From the NCBI GenBank assembly GCA_004764695.1, contig SMSO01000031.1:6319261-6383260 (forward strand): 64,000 bases of DNA, written 5' to 3'. Origin of the DNA: Schizochytrium sp. TIO01 (taxonomy: Eukaryota; Sar; Bigyra; Thraustochytrida; Thraustochytriidae). The notes beneath the pieces were generated by a model. The model ran no database searches. It saw only the letters and a list, made by a program, of their open reading frames with translations, and was not told where the DNA came from. Made by a program: the position numbers and the translations under genes. Of the stretch, positions 17,484-63,184 are shown piece by piece (positions within the stretch are counted from its first letter, which is position 1; each line of letters begins with the position of its first letter).

Positions 17484-19868
17484 ATGGCCACCACCGATGA
17501 GAACGGCAGCGCCATGTACGTTGTCAAGCGCAACGGCAAGCAGGAGGAGGTCAAGTTTGACAAGATCACCCAGCGTATCCGCAAACTCTGCTACGGCTTG
17601 AACAGCGAGTACTGCGACCCTGTCAAGATTGCCCAGAAGGTAGTCCAAGGCGTGTACTCTGGCGTTTCCACCACTGAGCTTGATGAGCTCGCAGCCGAGA
17701 CCGCCGCTTACGCCGCAACGCAGCACCCTGACTTCAGCATCCTCGCTGCACGCATTGCTGTGAGCAACCTCCACAAGAGCACTAGCGAATCTTTCTCCGA
17801 GACAATCGCCAAGCTCCGCCACCACATCCACCCCCGCAATGGCGAAAATGCCCCGCTCATTGCTGAAGACGTCTACGACATTGTCATGGCTAACAAGGAC
17901 CGCATCGACGCTGCCGTCAACTACGACCGCGACTTCGAGTACGACTTTTTCGGCTTCAAGACCCTCGAAAGGTCCTACCTTTTGCGCCTTGACGGTAAGA
18001 TCACTGAGCGCCCTCAGCACATGCTCATGCGTGTGGCCATTGGCATCCACAAGGATGACATCGACCGTGCCATTGAGACTTACGAGCTCATGTCTCAAAA
18101 GTTCTTCACCCACGCCACGCCCACACTCTTCAACGCTGGTACTCCTCGTCCCCAGATGTCTAGCTGCTTCCTTGTCCACATGAAGGAGGACTCCATCGAG
18201 GGTATCTTCCAGACACTCGAGACCTGCGCCAGAATCTCCAAGTACGCAGGAGGTATTGGTGTGAACATTCACCAAATTCGTGCCTCCGGCAGCTATGTTG
18301 CAGGCACCAACGGCAACTCCAACGGCATCATTCCGATGCTCCGTGTCTTCAACGACACTGCTCGCTACGTCGACCAGGGTGGTGGCAAGCGCAAGGGATC
18401 TTTCTGCATGTACCTTGAGCCGTGGCACCCGGATGTCTTTGACTTCATGGAGGTCCGTAAGAACCACGGTAAGGAGGAGATCAGAGCCCGCGATCTTTTC
18501 GTCGCACTCTGGGTTCCTGACCTTTTCATGGAGCGTGTGGAGAAGAACGGAGAATGGACCTTTTTTTGCCCCAACGAGGCTCGTGGACTCTCGGAAGTTT
18601 ACGGAGCCGAGTTTAACGAACTCTATGAGAGATACGAGCGTGAGGGCAAGGGACGCAAGACCATCCGTGCCCAGGAGCTTTGGTACCATATCTTGAACTG
18701 CCAGATTGAGACCGGTGTGCCCTTCATCTGCTACAAGGACGCTTGCAATCAAAAATCGAACCAGAAGAACCTCGGTACCATCAAGTCCTCCAACTTGTGT
18801 ACAGAGATCATTGAGTACTCCGCGCCCGATGAGGTCGCCGTATGTAACTTGGCATCAATCAACCTTCGCAAGTTTGTCAAGGCTGAGGAAGGTGTCTACG
18901 ACTTCAAGGCTCTCTACGACATCACAAAGGTTGTCACTGTGAACCTTAACCGCGTCATCGATAACAACTTCTACCCTGTCGAGGAGGCTAAGCGCAGCAA
19001 CCGCCGTCACCGCCCCGTGGGTATCGGTGTTCAGGGTCTTGCCAACGCTTTTATGGAGCTTAGGTACCCCTTTGAGAGTGCCGAGGCTCGCAAGCTCAAC
19101 CGCGACATCTTTGAGACAATCTACTTCGCAGCCTGCGAGGCGTCTTGCGAGCTTGCCCAGATTGAGGGCCACTACGAGACTTTCCCGGGTTCCCCCATGA
19201 GCAAGGGTATCTTCCAGTTCGAGATGTGGAACGAGAAGCCTAACCCTGAGCTTGGCTGGGACTGGGATGGCCTTCGCGAGAAGGTCGTGCAGCACGGTGT
19301 CCGCAACTCTCTCTTGGTGGCTCCCATGCCCACTGCATCCACATCGCAGATCTTGGGCAACTGCGAGGCATTTGAGCCGTACACCAGCAACATGTACTCC
19401 CGTCGTGTTCTCGCTGGTGAGTTCACGGTCGTGAACACTCACCTCCTTAAGGACCTGATCTCTCGTGGCTTATGGACTCCCTCCGTGCGTAACCAGATCA
19501 TGGCTGACCGTGGATCCGTCCAGAATGTTGCTGAGATCCCTGATGACCTCAAGGCCCTGTACAAGACTGTTTGGGAGATTAAGCAGCGTAGTCTCATTGA
19601 CCTCGCGGCAGACCGTGGTGCATTTATTGACCAGTCGCAGTCCCTCAACATTTACATGGCTGACGCTAACGTTGGCAAGCTCACCTCGTGCCACTTTTAT
19701 GGCTGGAAGCGCGGTCTCAAGACTGGCATGTACTATCTCCGCACCCGCCCTAAGGCTGATGCTATCCAGTTCACCGTTGACCAGGATGCACTTGCTGCTG
19801 CCCGCGCCGGTGCCGAGGTTAAGCCCGAGGTTGTCGAGGAGGAGGAGTGCCTCATGTGCGGAAGCTAA
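17484..19868 (+). CDS. RNR1: Ribonucleoside-diphosphate reductase large subunit, class Ia
   Basis: The product is 794 residues, the usual length for eukaryotic R1. An ATP-cone allosteric domain lies at about 12-100 ([21 protein letters not shown]). The redox pair is Cys228 (PQMSSCFLV) and Cys454 (VCNLASINL). The catalytic triad N437-x-C439-x-E441 is intact (SSNLCTE). [12 protein letters not shown] at 615-626 is the phosphate-binding signature. Tyr750-Tyr751 provide the radical-transfer pair, and the C-terminal Cys789-x2-Cys792 (CLMCGS) is the swinging-arm thiol pair. The enzyme reduces ribonucleoside diphosphates to deoxy forms together with the small subunit, which is not in this window. Codons strongly favour C in third position compared with neighbours, which suggests high expression. 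The initiation context aagATGg is good. Nothing is missing. Confidence 0.98.
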
Positions 19869-21055: not shown

Positions 21056-21060
21056 CTACG
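20991..21060. repeat. 35-bp tandem duplication across the stop codon of the myosin-like gene
   Basis: The unit beginning CATCACAAGG occurs at 20991-21025 and 21026-21060, with a single internal mismatch (C21001/T21036) and a different last base. Each copy contains the palindrome TCGCTCGGAGCGA. The TAG stop of the minus-strand gene (21056-21058) lies inside the right-hand copy. Confidence 0.85.
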
Positions 21061-24000
21061 AGCCATTTGGCGAGCAGCACTCTTCATGTCCTTGGTTGTT
21101 TTCCGCGTACTTTTGCGACTGCTCGTACTCTTGCGACTGCTTCGTACTCTTGCGACTCTTTCGACTCTTGACACTCTTTCGGCTCTTGACACTCTTCAAA
21201 CTCTTTCGCGACGATCTGGTATTGTCTGGATCCAGATCTTTGACTTTATCCTCAGTGGATTCCAACTCCTCACTGCTATCTTCATAATAAGAGGATGAAT
21301 CTGAGTCGTCAACATCTTCGAGCTCGACTTCCTCAATCTCATCAGCATCAGCAAGTTCATCATCGCCAACCGTGACAAGCTCATACTCGTAATCTCCGTC
21401 ATCGTCATCATCATCATCGTCGTCATCATCCTCAAAGTCTTCGCTCGTATTGCGACGACGGTTCCGCTTACTTTTGCGTCTGGATGATCGAGAATCGCTG
21501 GTCTGACTTTCATAATCACTATCTTTATCTTCTGGTAAGGAGATTTCATCATACTCGAGAATATCGTCAGAGCCTATTCGGAGACGCACATGCGGGTCAC
21601 CAGCCATAGCTCGCAATTCCAGAGTGACCTGGCGATAGTTCGCATTGAGACGCTTTTGGTCTTCCTTGGTAACAGGAGCGTTATCAAACTCGTACAAGAT
21701 ACCAAGCGCCTTGGCAAGCTCGGGGAAGTCGTTTGCTGTCATACCGATTTTTTGACATTCTTGAGTGAGACTGTATAAGTTCATACGGTTTCTTTCTACA
21801 ATAGCCCCCTTGAGCTTCTCAATTAACTCATCTTCCTTAGCCATTCGCTGCAGACGCATTTTCGCAAATTCCACAAGATTGTGTTGAAGATCCCACTTCA
21901 CAGAGAGCGCAATACCTTCTTGCAAGAGGTGAGCATCACGAGAGTCAACTCCGCGGAGAAGCATATCTTTGATTCTAGCATGCATACGGCGGATAAGCTC
22001 GAGGCGAGCAAGAACTTGTCGAGCCCATGCTACTAGGCGGAGTGAAACATCCTCGTTCACGTACTTCACTAAAGTTTCAAGAATATAAAAGGTTTTGGTA
22101 TTCATGTAGACCGAGCCTGATTTAAGGCCAACAGCGTACTGACCTTGTACAATATTTACCCCTGTGAAGGCTTGAAGCATCAATGGCGCGATGGGGCCTG
22201 TTCCCCGCGGGATCGGGCCAATGACTTCAGGTCGCACAATACGAGCGTAACGCGAGATAAAATCATCACTCGAGACACCCTTACCGCGCAAGCCTGGATA
22301 TACATCTTGCGTAACAATGCCCATAATACCAAGTTGTTTAAGCTGTGCCGTAACATAACGGGCGTTAAATCCCTCCGACGGGTTGCATTGTGGATTGCTT
22401 CCCAACACAAGCGATATGGTAGATGTTAGTTTTACTAAGCATCTGCACAGCACGATCAATTTCAAGTTTCAAACTACGCGCCGTCTCAATTTGACCTGCA
22501 TTAGAGTCATCAGCCTCGTCGCTTAGGTCGAGAATGCCAGCATCGACACTATCTTCAGTATCCTCGTCCACTTCTCGTCTAGCCGTGGTGCGAAGAATGT
22601 TTTGCAGGTAGTGGATCTGAGATCCCTCCTGCAGCAGATCATAGACTTCTCGCGGAATGTGATTAGAACGAATACGGTCCAAGAAGCCGCTAATAGAATA
22701 CGAAACAACTCCACTGTAATGAAGAATTTTAAAGTCCAATGGGTGCGGGTCCAACAGGTGTTTGTTGGCACTGAGCCGGGCAATTTTGTTACCAAGGCTG
22801 CGATCGCTACTACCGGGGGCAATGACTTCCTCCTCAATAAGTTGCAAAATACCGATAGGCTCTTTCTTTTTGTTGGAGCCAAATTCTGTTTCGGAGCCAC
22901 GGGTGCTCACATTACCACGTGTGATGGAGAATCGTTGAATGATATCATTTACTCGACGGGTACTCATGGGTGCATTGGTGTGAAAGTTCCTGCTTGAGCG
23001 ACTCATGGGTCTCATCAAAAGTCGGATACACTCTGCATTGCTTGAGGGTGGATGGACGATATCGAGTCCATCTTCCTTGAGCCAATGCGTTGTAAGGCTC
23101 CCGAGTTCCTGAATGAAGAAAGAATGGAAAGCTTCGAGGCGGTAGTTTTGGAAAAGCTCTTCCAATGATGTTTTCTCCACTTCAAGGGTGCCGTTCTCAA
23201 AGACTCCGATTCTGCCTACATTACCAAGGTTTTTCTTTTTGATAGTGCGCTTCGCAGAAGCACGGACATTAGCTGCAGCAAGCTTATTCGCTGCATCTAG
23301 CGCAGCGTCACGTTCTTCAATAGCAATTCTTTCAGCCTCCAGGACATCGTCAATAACTGCGACTTCTTTGTTGATACGTCTGAGAAGATGTCCAAACAGT
23401 TTATGATAGACCACACGCGCAATACCATCACGGAGTGAGTATTTATCCTTAATAGGTCTAACTTTTTGGAATTCCTCACCAGCAACTATCAGAGTCCGAA
23501 TATTCAGTGCGCGTTTGAGTTCTCGAGCAGTAACACCAAGGATGAGGCGGTCGTTATCCTCTCCATCCTCAGCATCTTCAAAGTGCTCGCGAGGCGCTTC
23601 GTCAGGATCTTGATCAGGATCCTCCTTGAAGACCATTTCCTGAACCTCAATAATCCCTTTCAGGATATCCTCAATATCCTTATGCTCCCCTGCACTCATG
23701 CCAAGTTCAAGCATTGCGGATTTGAGCTCTGCATTGACGCTCTCGTCTAGAAGCATCTGAAATGCAGGAAATGATTCAATGCCAAGATCGGTGACAGGGG
23801 AAGAGTTAAAGCCAAAGGCGTTGTATACTGCACCGAGAAGTTTGGGCGACAGCTCATCCTCTGTTGTTGATTTTCGTCGACGCCCAAATTTCTTGAGTCC
23901 GCCAAAAAAGCCTCGCGAGGTCTTTGATTTCGAAAACAGGATCTTCACTTCAGTCCATCGGATAAATGCATCACCACCAAAGGCGTGCAAAATCTGATCA

Positions 24001-24767
24001 GCGGCCTGGATCCTACGCCACCACTTGGCATCTTTTGGTTGAGCTAGCTGGATGGCGCGTAGAATGATGAATTTGGTCACGTCGCGTTTTCCAGCTTCCA
24101 TGATTCCATGTACCACAATAGTCTGCGAAGATGTGCCTTTTGATGCGCACAAATTTTTGTAAGTGCGCTCGACGATAGAGGAGAATGACTCTGCGCATAG
24201 ATCAGAGAGGTCTCCCATGCCGCTGCCAAAAGATGTAATTGTCTCTGTATCAGCACCCAGAATATTTCCATCTTCGTCAGTTTCATCATCAGGAAGATCG
24301 GAAAGTGTGGCTAGCGAGAGAATGTCTGTCTCGTATGAAATATTGGTGAAGACAAGAATGTTGTTTGCCAGAGACATGAATGAGTAGCCACGGTCGTAGC
24401 GTAGTCTAAGATTATGAAAGATTGCTGGATGCGAAAGGTCCCTAAATTCACTCGACATATGTCCAAGGCACTGGAGACTTTCCTTACCCATGGGCACTAG
24501 TCCTGCTATGACGTCCTTTTGAATTTTCATTTCCCTGTTTTTGCCTCCGAACCGTGTTTTCACCAATGCGACCTCGTCTCCACGATTGAAGTTCTTTTGC
24601 ACTTTCGCTGGTCGCCACAGATAGTCTTTATCAGGCATCCACACGAGTGTGCCCTTCGGGAACGCTTCGTACGTCGGGTCCTCCGAAATCTTCTCCACGA
24701 AGTCCCTTGACTGCCTCCACCATCGTGGTCCGGCGTCAGCTGCTTCGGCATCTCCATCCTGCGACAT
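21056..24767 (-). CDS. Myosin-like protein with degenerate motor; apparent frameshift
   Basis: From the ATG at 24767 (MSQDGDAEA) the frame runs 800 codons to a TAA at 22365. The homologous sequence switches frame after Cys787 (NIYHIAC), about 22404-22407, and continues 449 codons to 21056; together about 1,236 residues. Myosin landmarks are in order: an SH3-like N-terminal barrel (LVWMPDKDYLWRPAKVQ), HNLRLRYDRGYSFMSLANNILVF, the LGVTARELKRAL segment, RDGIARVVYHKLFGHLLRRIN, LHYSGVVSYSISGFL, and the GLRGKGVSSDDFISRYARI converter. ATP motifs are broken: Walker A reads GIMEAGKR (221-228), switch I lacks its NxNSSR, and switch II reads RIGVFE (519-524) where DIxGFE is expected. The tail is helical, then poly-Asp, then Lys-Ser repeats. 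It may be a non-motor myosin or a decaying copy; good frame preservation favours the former. Confidence 0.75.
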
Positions 24768-36688: not shown

Positions 36689-37265
36689 AACTACTGTTCA
36701 AAAGCGATGACTTCGCTCTGATCTGATTAATTAAAGCACATTTGTTTGTTTTTCAAGTAATTATTAACAAAGAAAAGAAAAGTAGAGGAAAATTTGTGAA
36801 AACAGAAACAAAAAAGAGTGGAAAACAAATAACAAACATAAAAAACGAAGAAAGAAAAATCGACGTGAAGGACGACTTCGGGGTGGTTGTTTCCTTGGAG
36901 CTCCCTGCATAATCAAAAGGCTTTCTCGGCGACCCTGACGAGTCCGCTTCTGTGGCCATAGCGCTCGGTGCCTTCGTGCAGGCTGGCTTCGTGCAGCGTG
37001 GCACGGGTACCGGTCGGCTTGACGTGGAGGCGGGGGTCTCAGTAGACCAGTTCACAGCTTAGTACCCAGTCGGCAAGCCTCGAGCCGCGAGCTCGTGCTT
37101 CAACCCAAACAACTTCGACGTCGAGGTGCCTGCAAAGTTGACTTTGTTGTGTGCTTGCTTGCCCTCTGGTTGCTGGGTTCTACACATTGTCGAAGGAAAC
37201 TCTGTATAGCAAGCAGATCAAGATTGGGTTCCTCGAAATTGCCTTCATCAGAGATAGACATAATC

Positions 37266-39935
37266 ATGGAAAACCGAAGCCTGGTATCGGTGACTGAGGA
37301 CGTCACAATGAAGCACAATGCTAGCGCGTTAGTTGACGACAATGCTAGGGAGGCGCGGAGAGCGAAGATCCGCACGAAACTTCGCGCTAGAATTGGGTTC
37401 TTGGGTATCGGTCTTTCGGCACTTGTCGTGCTTGGGCAGCTGGGGTGGTTTGCTCAAGGTAATTCGCAGTATGAAACCGGTCGCCGCGACAGCCGCCGCC
37501 GTGAACTATCGTCTTCTTCATCATCAGGCACAGAGGATGCATTCTGTAGCGAAGATCCTGGCATGGCCTCATTTTGTGTGGTGAATGGCACTAACCTCTG
37601 CACTGGTGATGATGAATATACGCGTGTTTGCTGCCTAAATAAAGACGAGTGCCGCACATTTTATGGCGATGTATGTCCAGAGTCATACATCTGCGATGCG
37701 GAGCTAATGCCTGGATCTACAGGCTACGGCAGGTGCTTAAAGGATTGGGAAATGAACGGCGGTGCATGGGCCTACGTCATTATCATGTTTTACCTCTTCC
37801 TTGGTCTTGCAATCGTTTGCGATGACTATTTTGTCGCATCCCTTGAAAGTATTAGCGAGTCACTTAACCTCTCTGAGGATGTTGCAGGAGCCACCTTTCT
37901 CGCAGCGGGTAGCAGCGCACCCGAACTTTTCGTTTCGCTGGCAGATAACGTGATTGCAAACCCACCCAAGGATGTCGGTATTGGTACCATCGTGGGTTCT
38001 GCTATCTTCAATATTTTAGTTATTATCGGCCTCACTGCAATGCTTGCCGGTGATGTGCTTCACCTTGATTGGCGCCCCCTTGCACGTGACGTGAGCTTCT
38101 ACATTGTCTCTATTGTAGTGCTGCTGGCTGTAATCATTGACGGTGATGCCCATTGGTGGGAAGGTCTCATTATGCTGCTCATCTACGCACTTTATATTGG
38201 TTTTATGACCGTCAATGCTCGAATCTTTGTGTGGATGGACCAAAAATTTGGCAGTTCCAGGCCTCAGGAAGGTTCCACTCCTGACGGCGACACTCCCGTA
38301 CCCAAGCTGCCTGTCGATGATATTGAGACCGCCCCCGCACTTACTACCTCACCCTCCTTAGTCACTACCCCGGCCTCCAACTACACTAACCTGGACACTG
38401 ATAGCGGTGCTGTCGAGCTTGCTCTCACTGATTATGAAACATCAGAAGACCTTAACTCCAAGGTAAACTTAGACAAGGTTTCAGGAGAGGGCACAAGTCT
38501 CAACTCCGTACAGCCGGTCACTACCGTGTCTAATTCCACTTCCTATTCAGCTTCCTCTGAAGGTGTCGTTCGTGCAGCCGAAACTCTCCTGGGAAGTTCC
38601 GCTATGCCTGCCCAAGGTCCTGCCGTTCGTCACACTGTGGAGACCTCGAGACCTACAGCTGCTGTTGAGGCAGCCGCTGAAGTCGCGCGTCTCGAGCGCC
38701 GCAACAGTGAAACTCACGTTCGTGAACACTCTTCAATGGCTGGCCATCAGAATCACTACCGTGGCGATGGTAGTGCTCGTTTTGTGGCAGGTTCCAATTC
38801 TTCCAACCCTCTTTTTATTAGCCGTAATCGTGGGTTCAATCACAGCATGCGTTTCAGTCGCGAGGGCTCAGTGCGCAGTGGAGTGGCTCCTTTTGGCCAC
38901 AACGAGCAACACCCCAATATGCTTTCTGCACACCAGAACTCTTCTCGCAAGAGTGTCACAGATGTCGCACAGGCCGTCATCCGAGCCAGTCTTGAGAGCA
39001 AGTCGTGGGCGGATCACTCCCAACAGGCTATGGAAGGCAAGCAGCACAGTTCTGCACCCGACGGAACACACTCCGGCCGAGGAATTTCCGAGGGCCAAGG
39101 CTCCTCAAGCAACGTAGTTCCTGACAACAGCGGACAGGGACTCGCTCTTACCAAGGTGGTTGCTCCCGACCCTGTCGTTTGTGAGGAGCAGGAAGACGAA
39201 CAGGAATCATACTGGGCTCCTCTGCACTGGCCTTCGTACGAAGGAAACAGCGAGAAGGAAGGAGCCGAGGCCTCAGGAAACATGCCGAACAAGCTGTCCT
39301 TCGTTGGCCGCTGCTGCTACGGCTGGAAGTCACTCTGGGCATCGCGTTTGTACTACGTGATTTCCTTCCCATATAACTTCATGTTTCGCTTCACAATCCC
39401 GGACTGCACCTTCGACGTCTTCGGAGAGGACAAGGAAGGCGCCGAGCCCAATCGCCGTATCGCATTCTCACTCACATTCACGATGAGCATCGTGTGGATC
39501 GCTGTGCTTTCTTACTTTCTTGTGTGGTCAGCGAGTAAGTTCGGCTGCACTGTGGGCATCCCTTCCTCTGTTATGGGCTTGACCTTTATTGCAGCGGGAA
39601 CGAGTGTGCCCGACGCAATATCCTCCATTATCGTCGCTCGCCAGGGCCAGGGTGACATGGCAGTTGCGAACTCGATCGGCAGTAACATCTTTGATATTCT
39701 CATTGGCCTTGGTCTTCCTTGGTTCCTTGCAGGTCTCATTTACAAGAACTCTTCCAACGTCCAAATTGATGATATCACTGTTGGTATGTCCTTTCTCTTT
39801 GCAATTGTCGTCGTGCTAGTTATCGTGCTCAAGATCGCGCGCTGGCGCCTTAACAAGATCGTGGGCGGAGTTCTGCTTTTCTTGTATGTCTTCTACATTA
39901 TCTTTGAGCTCGTCATTTACCCTCACGTCGAATAA
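37266..39935 (+). CDS. K+-dependent Na+/Ca2+ exchanger-like (NCKX/SLC24), paralogue A
   Basis: The product is 889 residues from the ATG at 37266, a start chosen because the paralogue at 60929 begins at the equivalent point. A first membrane segment lies at 43-63. A lumenal or extracellular domain at 94-157 has nine cysteines (94, 104, 112, 122, 123, 129, 137, 143, 157). The first exchanger half contains alpha-1 (GATFLAAGSSAPELF, Glu220). A long polar loop spans about 330-695. The second half holds alpha-2 (GLTFIAAGTSVPD, Asp783) and GSNIFDI with Asp810; its counterpart in NCKX2 is linked to K+ dependence. These proteins export Ca2+ and K+ in exchange for Na+ across the plasma or a vesicle membrane. 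The loop is far longer than usual and Ser/Thr-rich, so probably regulatory. Family assignment is firm; ion selectivity is inferred. Confidence 0.92.
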   Translation: MENRSLVSVTEDVTMKHNASALVDDNAREARRAKIRTKLRARIGFLGIGLSALVVLGQLGWFAQGNSQYETGRRDSRRRELSSSSSSGTEDAFCSEDPGMASFCVVNGTNLCTGDDEYTRVCCLNKDECRTFYGDVCPESYICDAELMPGSTGYGRCLKDWEMNGGAWAYVIIMFYLFLGLAIVCDDYFVASLESISESLNLSEDVAGATFLAAGSSAPELFVSLADNVIANPPKDVGIGTIVGSAIFNILVIIGLTAMLAGDVLHLDWRPLARDVSFYIVSIVVLLAVIIDGDAHWWEGLIMLLIYALYIGFMTVNARIFVWMDQKFGSSRPQEGSTPDGDTPVPKLPVDDIETAPALTTSPSLVTTPASNYTNLDTDSGAVELALTDYETSEDLNSKVNLDKVSGEGTSLNSVQPVTTVSNSTSYSASSEGVVRAAETLLGSSAMPAQGPAVRHTVETSRPTAAVEAAAEVARLERRNSETHVREHSSMAGHQNHYRGDGSARFVAGSNSSNPLFISRNRGFNHSMRFSREGSVRSGVAPFGHNEQHPNMLSAHQNSSRKSVTDVAQAVIRASLESKSWADHSQQAMEGKQHSSAPDGTHSGRGISEGQGSSSNVVPDNSGQGLALTKVVAPDPVVCEEQEDEQESYWAPLHWPSYEGNSEKEGAEASGNMPNKLSFVGRCCYGWKSLWASRLYYVISFPYNFMFRFTIPDCTFDVFGEDKEGAEPNRRIAFSLTFTMSIVWIAVLSYFLVWSASKFGCTVGIPSSVMGLTFIAAGTSVPDAISSIIVARQGQGDMAVANSIGSNIFDILIGLGLPWFLAGLIYKNSSNVQIDDITVGMSFLFAIVVVLVIVLKIARWRLNKIVGGVLLFLYVFYIIFELVIYPHVE

Positions 39936-60928: not shown

Positions 60929-63184
60929 ATGGGAACTACAACACCCCAGATGGCAGCCGCGGAATGGGATCTCCAGGATTCTCTTGTGTCTGATGCCGAA
61001 GCACGCCAAGCTCGTGTGGATGCTTTACGCATTAAGTTTCGTGTGCGCATTGCGTTCTACGCCATTGCTTCCGCAGCGGTCATCTGTGTAAGCCAACTTG
61101 GACTATTGGGATCAAGTAACAACAAGATTCAACAGCAACAGTCTTACAATGCGTATAATAATCCCATGGATGTCTTCATTGAGCGTCGTGCGCTTGGTGG
61201 TACAACTACATCTGATTGTCAGGACGATGCAGACATGCTTGCATTTTGCACAGTGAACGGCACATTTGTCTGCACAGGAAGCAGTGAGTACACCATGGTG
61301 TGCTGTCGTAACGACAACGAATGCCGCACCTACGAAGATGACATTTGCGCAGAATCAGAGATCTGCAATGCTGAGCTGAAGCCTGCTGGAAACGGCTATG
61401 GTGAGTGCATGGATTACTGGGAGACCCACGGAGGTACTGCAGCATACATTATCATTATGTTTTACCTCTTCTTTGGCCTCGGTCTTGTATGTGATGGATA
61501 CTTTGTTGCCTCCCTTGAGCGAATTAGTGTAGCTCTTAAACTTCCTGAGGATGTTGCAGGTGCCACATTCTTAGCTGCCGGTAGTAGTTCTCCCGAGCTT
61601 TTTGTTGCTCTCTCTGATAACGTTATCTCAAACCCCCCCAAGAACGTTGGTGTTGGAACTATTGTTGGTTCTGCCATCTTTAACATTTGCATGATCATCG
61701 GTCTTTCTGCGCTTCTCGCGAGAGAAACTCTGCAACTTGATTGGCGTCCGATTCTCCGCGATGTATTCTTCTATGTGGTCAGTATCATTGCTCTCATTCT
61801 TGTGATTCTCGACAGTGAGGCACAGTGGTACGAGGGTCTCATCTTCCTTGTCATCTATGCTTTCTACGTTGCTACGATGGCTCTCAACCGCCACGTACTT
61901 GCATGGATGGACCGTACGTTTACTTTTGGTATCAAGAGGCCTGCAGACTCTTCTATTGTTTCTTCAAGCGCGGAAGACGATGCCGAGACTGAGGCTAACA
62001 AGAATGCCGAAGACGCCGAAGCAGCGATTACTCCCATGGAACGCTCTCAGCACCGCGCTGTGTTCCAAGAGGCTGCCGAGGCAGCCCATACACCCAAGAA
62101 CCGTGCGCTTCACCGCGATGTTGCTTCTTCTGCTGCTCGTGCTGCCCGCAATGACCTCGGCTCTTCCTACGATGGTAGTATCCGCTTCGCAGCCGACGAG
62201 GAGTCTTACAATGCTCTCTTTCTCAGTCGTAACCGTGCTTTCAACAACAACCGTCATTCCATTCGCCGGCGTGAGTCTGCGAAGCGCTCCAAGATGACCT
62301 CCAAACTTACGAGTATTGGCCCGAACCCGTACGGTGGCGACCCATCGCTGACCCACCACAACTCCATGAACTCTCACGCCAGTAATGTGGTGGATGGCTC
62401 GGGTCGTTCAAAGAGTATTGTTAGTGAAAACCCATTGCGCACTTCTGAGCCCCGTGAACATAGTTCCATGTCAGAGACGTCCTCTACGAAAGAGGGTTAC
62501 TGGGATGTGCTCAAGTGGCCTACTGTCGAAGATGACGATGGCGAGCTCAACTGCTTCCAGCGTTACTGCTGTGGTGGTTGTCGTTTATGGCTGTCTCGAG
62601 TTTACTTCATCATAGGATTCCCGTACCAACTCCTTTTCCGTATTACTATCCCCGACTGTGCCTTTGATGTATTTCACGAGGACAAGGCTGGGCAGCCTGA
62701 GAATCGTCGCATTGCTTATACCTCCGCCTTCGCCTGTGCCGTTATTTGGGTTGCTGCTCTTTCCTACGTACTTTCCTGGTCTGCACAGAAGTTTGGTTGC
62801 ACTGTTGGTATTTCCTCATCTGCTATGGGGCTGACCTTCTTAGCAGCTGGTACAAGTTTCCCTGACTGCATTTCTTCAATCATCGTCGCGCGTCAGGGCC
62901 AGGGCAGTATGGCAGTGGCCAACTCAATCGGTAGCAACAACTTTGATATCCTTGTTGGCCTTGGAATTCCATGGTTTCTTGCTGGACTTATTTACAAGAC
63001 TCCCTCTGGCGTCGACACTTCGGACGTGACCACTGGTGTCTCCTTCATGTTTGCCGTTCTTGTGGTTCTTCTCATTGTTCTTCGCATTACGCGCTGGAAG
63101 CTCAACAAGTTCCTGGGATCTATTCTTGTCGTTTTGTACATTCTCTACTTCATCTTTGAGCTTGCTATCTACCCGCTTATTTGA
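60929..63184 (+). CDS. K+-dependent Na+/Ca2+ exchanger-like (NCKX/SLC24), paralogue B
   Basis: The product is 751 residues, initiation context tacgATGg. Its layout matches the exchanger at 37266. A membrane segment lies at about 41-61, and the nine-cysteine ectodomain (97, 107, 115, 125, 126, 132, 140, 146, 160) has identical spacing. Alpha-1 contains GATFLAAGSSSPELF (Glu223). Alpha-2 contains GLTFLAAGTSFPD (Asp646). The GSNxFDI motif has Asn671 where paralogue A has Ile, followed by Asp673. The central loop (about 335-550) is roughly 150 residues shorter and differs almost completely, except for a conserved LFLSRNRAFN segment. The closing helices (KLNKFLGSILVVLYILYFIFELAIYP) align with paralogue A throughout. 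It is the product of an old duplication, probably with its own regulation or location. Confidence 0.92.
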   Translation: MGTTTPQMAAAEWDLQDSLVSDAEARQARVDALRIKFRVRIAFYAIASAAVICVSQLGLLGSSNNKIQQQQSYNAYNNPMDVFIERRALGGTTTSDCQDDADMLAFCTVNGTFVCTGSSEYTMVCCRNDNECRTYEDDICAESEICNAELKPAGNGYGECMDYWETHGGTAAYIIIMFYLFFGLGLVCDGYFVASLERISVALKLPEDVAGATFLAAGSSSPELFVALSDNVISNPPKNVGVGTIVGSAIFNICMIIGLSALLARETLQLDWRPILRDVFFYVVSIIALILVILDSEAQWYEGLIFLVIYAFYVATMALNRHVLAWMDRTFTFGIKRPADSSIVSSSAEDDAETEANKNAEDAEAAITPMERSQHRAVFQEAAEAAHTPKNRALHRDVASSAARAARNDLGSSYDGSIRFAADEESYNALFLSRNRAFNNNRHSIRRRESAKRSKMTSKLTSIGPNPYGGDPSLTHHNSMNSHASNVVDGSGRSKSIVSENPLRTSEPREHSSMSETSSTKEGYWDVLKWPTVEDDDGELNCFQRYCCGGCRLWLSRVYFIIGFPYQLLFRITIPDCAFDVFHEDKAGQPENRRIAYTSAFACAVIWVAALSYVLSWSAQKFGCTVGISSSAMGLTFLAAGTSFPDCISSIIVARQGQGSMAVANSIGSNNFDILVGLGIPWFLAGLIYKTPSGVDTSDVTTGVSFMFAVLVVLLIVLRITRWKLNKFLGSILVVLYILYFIFELAIYPLI

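Follow-up and report, generated by a model that had tools for sequence, protein, structure and literature searches.

Several myosin-related proteins with impaired motor function have been described. Myosins in which ATP hydrolysis, the converter, or actin binding is disrupted exist, and dozens of stramenopile myosins are unclassified (Kollmar & Muhlhausen, PMC5583752). SchsMyoE is an “extremely divergent” orphan that was excluded from trees (Kollmar 2017). In Trypanosoma cruzi, MyHd (“myosin H-derived”) has been called a pseudomyosin; it is predicted to be inactive, lacks an ATP-binding P-loop, and is located at the cytopharynx (PMC7300353). The class-18 myosins Myo18A and Myo18B have a deviant P-loop and switch I and negligible ATPase, and have been proposed to act as a scaffold or brake (PMC11112018). 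The coiled-coil tail of Myo18 co-assembles with class 2 (PMC11112018, and partly general knowledge). Outside the myosins, the Kinesin-14 partners Vik1 and Cik1 have non-catalytic motor domains (PMC4338441).

The disrupted myosins, MyHd, and Myo18 indicate that pseudomyosins are already known, and the gene analyzed here would add one more. It lies in a stretch of 64,000 nucleotides, hereafter the window. Like T. cruzi MyHd, the window gene is a protist orphan head predicted to be inactive, a likeness by description; in contrast to MyHd, it belongs to another lineage and keeps part of the P-loop backbone, with switch I deleted. A deviant P-loop and switch I are also found in Myo18A and Myo18B, but these form a Holozoan class with milder motif changes and a coiled-coil tail, whereas the tail of the window gene is acidic and KS-rich. 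The divergent orphans of PMC5583752 answer to the same description, and the comparison is by description only. Vik1 and Cik1 provide an analogy only, in that a non-catalytic motor fold assists a catalytic partner; theirs is a kinesin fold on microtubules, and no homology is claimed.

Gene layout and myosin identity

The myosin-like gene runs on the minus strand from an ATG at window position 24767 to a stop at 21056. A sequence-only reading of this DNA had given these coordinates correctly; however, it had overlooked a +1 shift that splits the head from the converter, neck, and tail. The first frame, ORF1, encodes 800 aa and ends with QPVGGI and a stop, and the myosin similarity carries on one base over in ORF2 (440 aa) with SEGFNARYVTAQLKQLG. 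These two observations place a +1 shift, that is, one extra base or two missing, at about 22378-22365. As assembled, the sequence encodes a protein that the frameshift cuts short ahead of the converter. The features of the gene are as follows.

22365..24767, minus strand: ORF1, N-terminal barrel through SH1-helix region of the head, with its stop just past the frameshift site (translation; Pfam Myosin_head)
24483..24665, minus strand: N-terminal SH3-like barrel VWMPDKDYLWRPAKV, residues 35-95 (paired with the N-terminal region of myosin Va by the solved-structure search)
24084..24107, minus strand: degenerate P-loop GIMEAGKR, Lys kept, Thr replaced by Arg (profile alignment)
23922..23978, minus strand: switch I position with NxNSSRFGK deleted, sequence GGDAFIRWTEVKILFSKSK (profile alignment)
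23364..23432, minus strand: conserved helix RDGIARVVYHKLFGHLLRRINKE ahead of switch II (profile alignment)
23232..23366, minus strand: insert of about 45 residues, Ala/Glu/Lys-rich, immediately before switch II (insertion relative to the paralogue profile)
23181..23216, minus strand: degenerate switch II, GRIGVFENGTLE in place of GxLDIFGFE, with Gly for Asp and Phe-Glu lost (profile alignment)
23100..23177, minus strand: relay-helix counterpart EKTSLEELFQNYRLEAFHSFFIQELG (profile alignment)
22782..22862, minus strand: retained lower-50K region EPIGILQLIEEEVIAPGSSDRSLGNKI (best Pfam stretch, 635-795; profile)
22665..22739, minus strand: retained HYAGxVxY element LDFKILHYSGVVSYSISGFLDRIRS (alignment)
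22485..22592, minus strand: strongly acidic loop 2 counterpart (charge comparison)
22365..22378, minus strand: +1 frameshift site, inside CAACCCGTCGGAGGGATTTAA (sequence and translations of both ORFs)
21056..22378, minus strand: ORF2, with converter, degenerate neck, and tail (translation; profile match)
22058..22378, minus strand: converter-like segment FNARYVTAQLKQLG...SVYMNTKTFYILE (profile match)
21959..22045, minus strand: IQ-like neck LVAWARQVLAR, lacking the IQ Gln and Gly (profile alignment)
21380..21439, minus strand: acidic run with 11 consecutive Asp (translation; low-complexity DNA with matches at many unrelated genomic sites)
21140..21211, minus strand: (K/R)S-rich repeat SRKSLKSVKSRKSVKSRKSRKSTK (translation)

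The search of ORF1 against the Pfam Myosin_head family, a check that the sequence-only reading had proposed, gave 93.5 bits (E=1.3e-26) over three stretches. A profile built from 42 same-genome paralogues scored the window gene at 186.5 bits, while 100 shuffled copies reached at most 3.0 bits. This match was collinear from the barrel through the neck, as far as residue 936 when the two frames are joined, and bears out the earlier claim of a myosin order from barrel to converter, with the converter lying in ORF2. Both structural segments that had been listed as kept, RDGIARVVYHKLFGHLL and LHYSGVVSYSISGFL, are present, as are the poly-Asp run and the Lys-Ser-rich C-terminus that had been described for the tail. 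In the solved-structure search, all matches listed were myosins (best E=7e-13). Judged by these profile matches, the window gene is a genuine, extremely divergent myosin head. Another P-loop-like fold with a chance resemblance to myosin might be imagined, because identity is at most 22-24% even to the nearest paralogues and the single-sequence AlphaFold2 model (pLDDT 33.9) was uninformative; however, the distance from the shuffled copies, the collinear match, and the myosin-only structure matches leave this reading with next to no probability.

The ATP site and the paralogues

A Pfam search of the 64-Mb genome detected about 46 other myosin-head loci, giving about 47 myosin genes with the window gene. 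This set is large and intron-poor, which gives the impression of a stramenopile protist; one intron was seen among the paralogues, in L019 (some 270-290 nt). The loci were read and then aligned on a profile of the best paralogues. The P-loop G-E-S-G-A/S-G-K-T/S (one GDSGAGKT), switch I N-x-N-S-S-R (one NDHSSR), and switch II D-x-x-G-F-E were each kept in 44 of the 44 canonical heads, and departures from the three-motif set were confined to the window gene, L045, and L046.

The profile alignment against the 44 canonical heads supports the earlier proposal that all three nucleotide-site motifs are degenerate on a myosin fold. The P-loop consensus GESGAGKT is not present in the window gene; the reported Walker A sequence, with Arg for Thr/Ser, was found at residues 221-228, where Gly, Gly, and Lys remain. 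Switch I had been described as absent near GGDAFIRW, and this sequence does occur at residues 264-271 with the motif gone; more precisely, the alignment has a gap across TxRNxNSSR and then pairs (F)IRWTEVKI with the strand that follows switch I. The best interpretation of this gap is that switch I has been cleanly deleted. Switch II lacks DxxGFE and reads GRIGVF, the RIGVFE noted earlier as having no Asp being present in the switch II position. The window head keeps 5 of 19 invariant residues in the active site and 30 of 71 elsewhere in the profile alignment. Hydrophobic positions were still hydrophobic in 112 of 129 cases (background, 41%), a count that leans on the profile-fitted alignment and for which the shuffle control is no test, since the shuffles stay unaligned.

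The kept Gly, Gly, and Lys could be taken to mean that the protein is an active motor with rearranged chemistry, in which the P-loop Lys binds nucleotide and other residues stand in for switch I and switch II. A candidate stand-in is KSKTSR, which MAFFT pairs with NxNSSR although it lies some 14 residues beyond the switch I site in the downstream direction. We regard an active motor as highly improbable, because the Thr, the whole of switch I, and the switch II Asp are lost together, and Myo18, with milder changes, already has negligible ATPase (PMC11112018).

The other two departures differ from the window gene. L045 (G000:C33:4382500-4387000), a 3002-aa frame, has likewise lost switch I (SSVRCADTTCYTK) and switch II; in contrast to the window gene, it keeps a P-loop-like GMSGSGKS and has an IQ motif. 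A PH match in L045 was below threshold. L046 (G000:C4:521500-525500; 802 aa) is also a divergent head, a partial one scoring 49.8 bits, in which none of the three motifs was aligned, and its branch length in the quick tree is extreme. In this tree (SH-aLRT only), the window gene is placed on a very long branch beside an 11-paralogue clade with support of 94. Two of the three motif-less heads, both long branches, join each other there, possibly through an artefact, and the tree is no demonstration of one origin for all three. The window gene has no near copy in its own genome, the best match being 24% identical (C6:2299616). Its tail is unique in the genome, and matches to its DNA elsewhere in the genome are confined to the poly-Asp stretch. 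Prokaryote genome contigs and viral contigs contained no orthologue.

Selection and the frameshift

Simulated mutation of the paralogue L041 without selection (822 codons), run to 24% amino-acid identity, produced a mean of 31.6 in-frame stops (range, 19-46), with stops counted before any indels. ORF1, at its comparable identity to the nearest paralogues, has 0 in-frame stops in 800 codons. Synonymous codon usage lies at the paralogue median both before and after the shift, with z values of 9.2 (ORF1) and 8.0 (ORF2) over a composition-only null. The missing stops and the coding-like codon usage indicate that the divergence, including the motif loss, occurred in a translated and selected gene. 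This is indirect evidence of selection on the protein despite the motif loss. Slow neutral decay of one copy is ruled out by the same two results, 0 stops where about 32 are expected and coding-like codon usage.

The frameshift in the window gene may have arisen during assembly or through a recent disabling mutation. By the reading of the junction, a single-base difference in a CCC or GGG run would explain it, and there is no long homopolymer here. The 44 canonical heads contained just one other single-base frameshift, in L042 (G000:C31:2410000-2412900), a canonical myosin split by a one-base shift at GGGGG (a G5 run, about nt 2150-2165). The L042 frameshift may itself be an assembly error or mark a broken gene. 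It suggests that such indels occur in the assembly, unless L042 is broken, though they are rare per kilobase.

This rarity and the position of the shift outside any long homopolymer speak for a rival reading, a gene that has recently died: a divergent head, already ATPase-less or weakly active, would have been disabled by a +1 frameshift and would now be an early pseudogene. Such a recent death deserves serious weight but is unlikely, since no further lesion was found in about 1,240 codons and codon usage is coding-like on either side of the shift. Even if the gene has died, the motif-less head would still have been long selected beforehand.

The overlapping ORFs, both with coding-like codon usage, speak for a functional frame change, in which the full-length protein arises by programmed +1 frameshifting, or by splicing of a very short intron, and the 800-aa form is an alternative product. 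A GT..AG stretch of 34 nt at the junction, picked out by eye, would also restore the frame if removed. However, no slippery site was recognized, 34 nt is far below the length of the L019 intron, and its excision would take about 11 residues out of the conserved segment that precedes the converter. Both the 34-nt intron and programmed frameshifting were therefore held unlikely, and we give a functional frame change very little credence.

A putative pseudomyosin and its surroundings

We favor, with a probability of about 0.6, the reading that the window gene encodes a pseudomyosin, a catalytically dead head kept for its fold, probably as a nucleotide-independent binding or partner module, with the frameshift being either an indel of the assembly or a lesion of very recent date. 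A duplicated myosin head, which by the quick tree would have branched early beside the 11-paralogue clade, would have lost ATP coordination, with a P-loop without the Mg-binding Thr/Ser, no switch I, and a switch II without its Asp. Divergence of the head would then have continued while selection kept the protein intact. It is predicted not to hydrolyze ATP and would thus have no power stroke.

In standard myosins, loop 2 is often basic and makes the first contact with actin. The loop 2 segment compared here has a net charge of -10, the lowest among the 45 aligned heads. The Pfam search gave no IQ match in the neck of the window gene. With so acidic a loop 2 and a neck without the IQ residues, strong actin binding and light-chain binding are both doubtful. 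The head may therefore have been retained as a nucleotide-independent interaction module, and the charged tail could be a further contact. Since the strong acidity of loop 2 speaks against the usual tight attachment to actin, a binding or partner-module function, as heterodimer or scaffold, appears likeliest from the sequence.

By analogy with Vik1 and Cik1 as partners of Kar3, the window gene, L045, and L046 might form a small pseudomyosin set with differing ATP-site losses that serves as non-catalytic partners of the expanded active myosins. This extension is speculative and improbable. We know of no earlier case in which catalytic and non-catalytic myosin heads pair, and such a pairing would be new if true. 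If intact, the gene would provide a natural test of the uses of the myosin fold without nucleotide chemistry, in a genome whose roughly 44 intact paralogues would serve as internal controls. The three departures from the canonical ATP site within one genome bear on how frequently motor folds are reused as binding modules.

The adjoining gene in the window (17484-19868) is a single unbroken frame for a ribonucleotide reductase large subunit with an ATP cone. The window also contains a pair of related Na/Ca exchanger genes, about 21 kb apart on the same strand (37095-39935 and 60929-63184). The genome also contains at least 40 equal-scoring full-length 5.8S rRNA matches spread over many contigs, several of them near contig ends.
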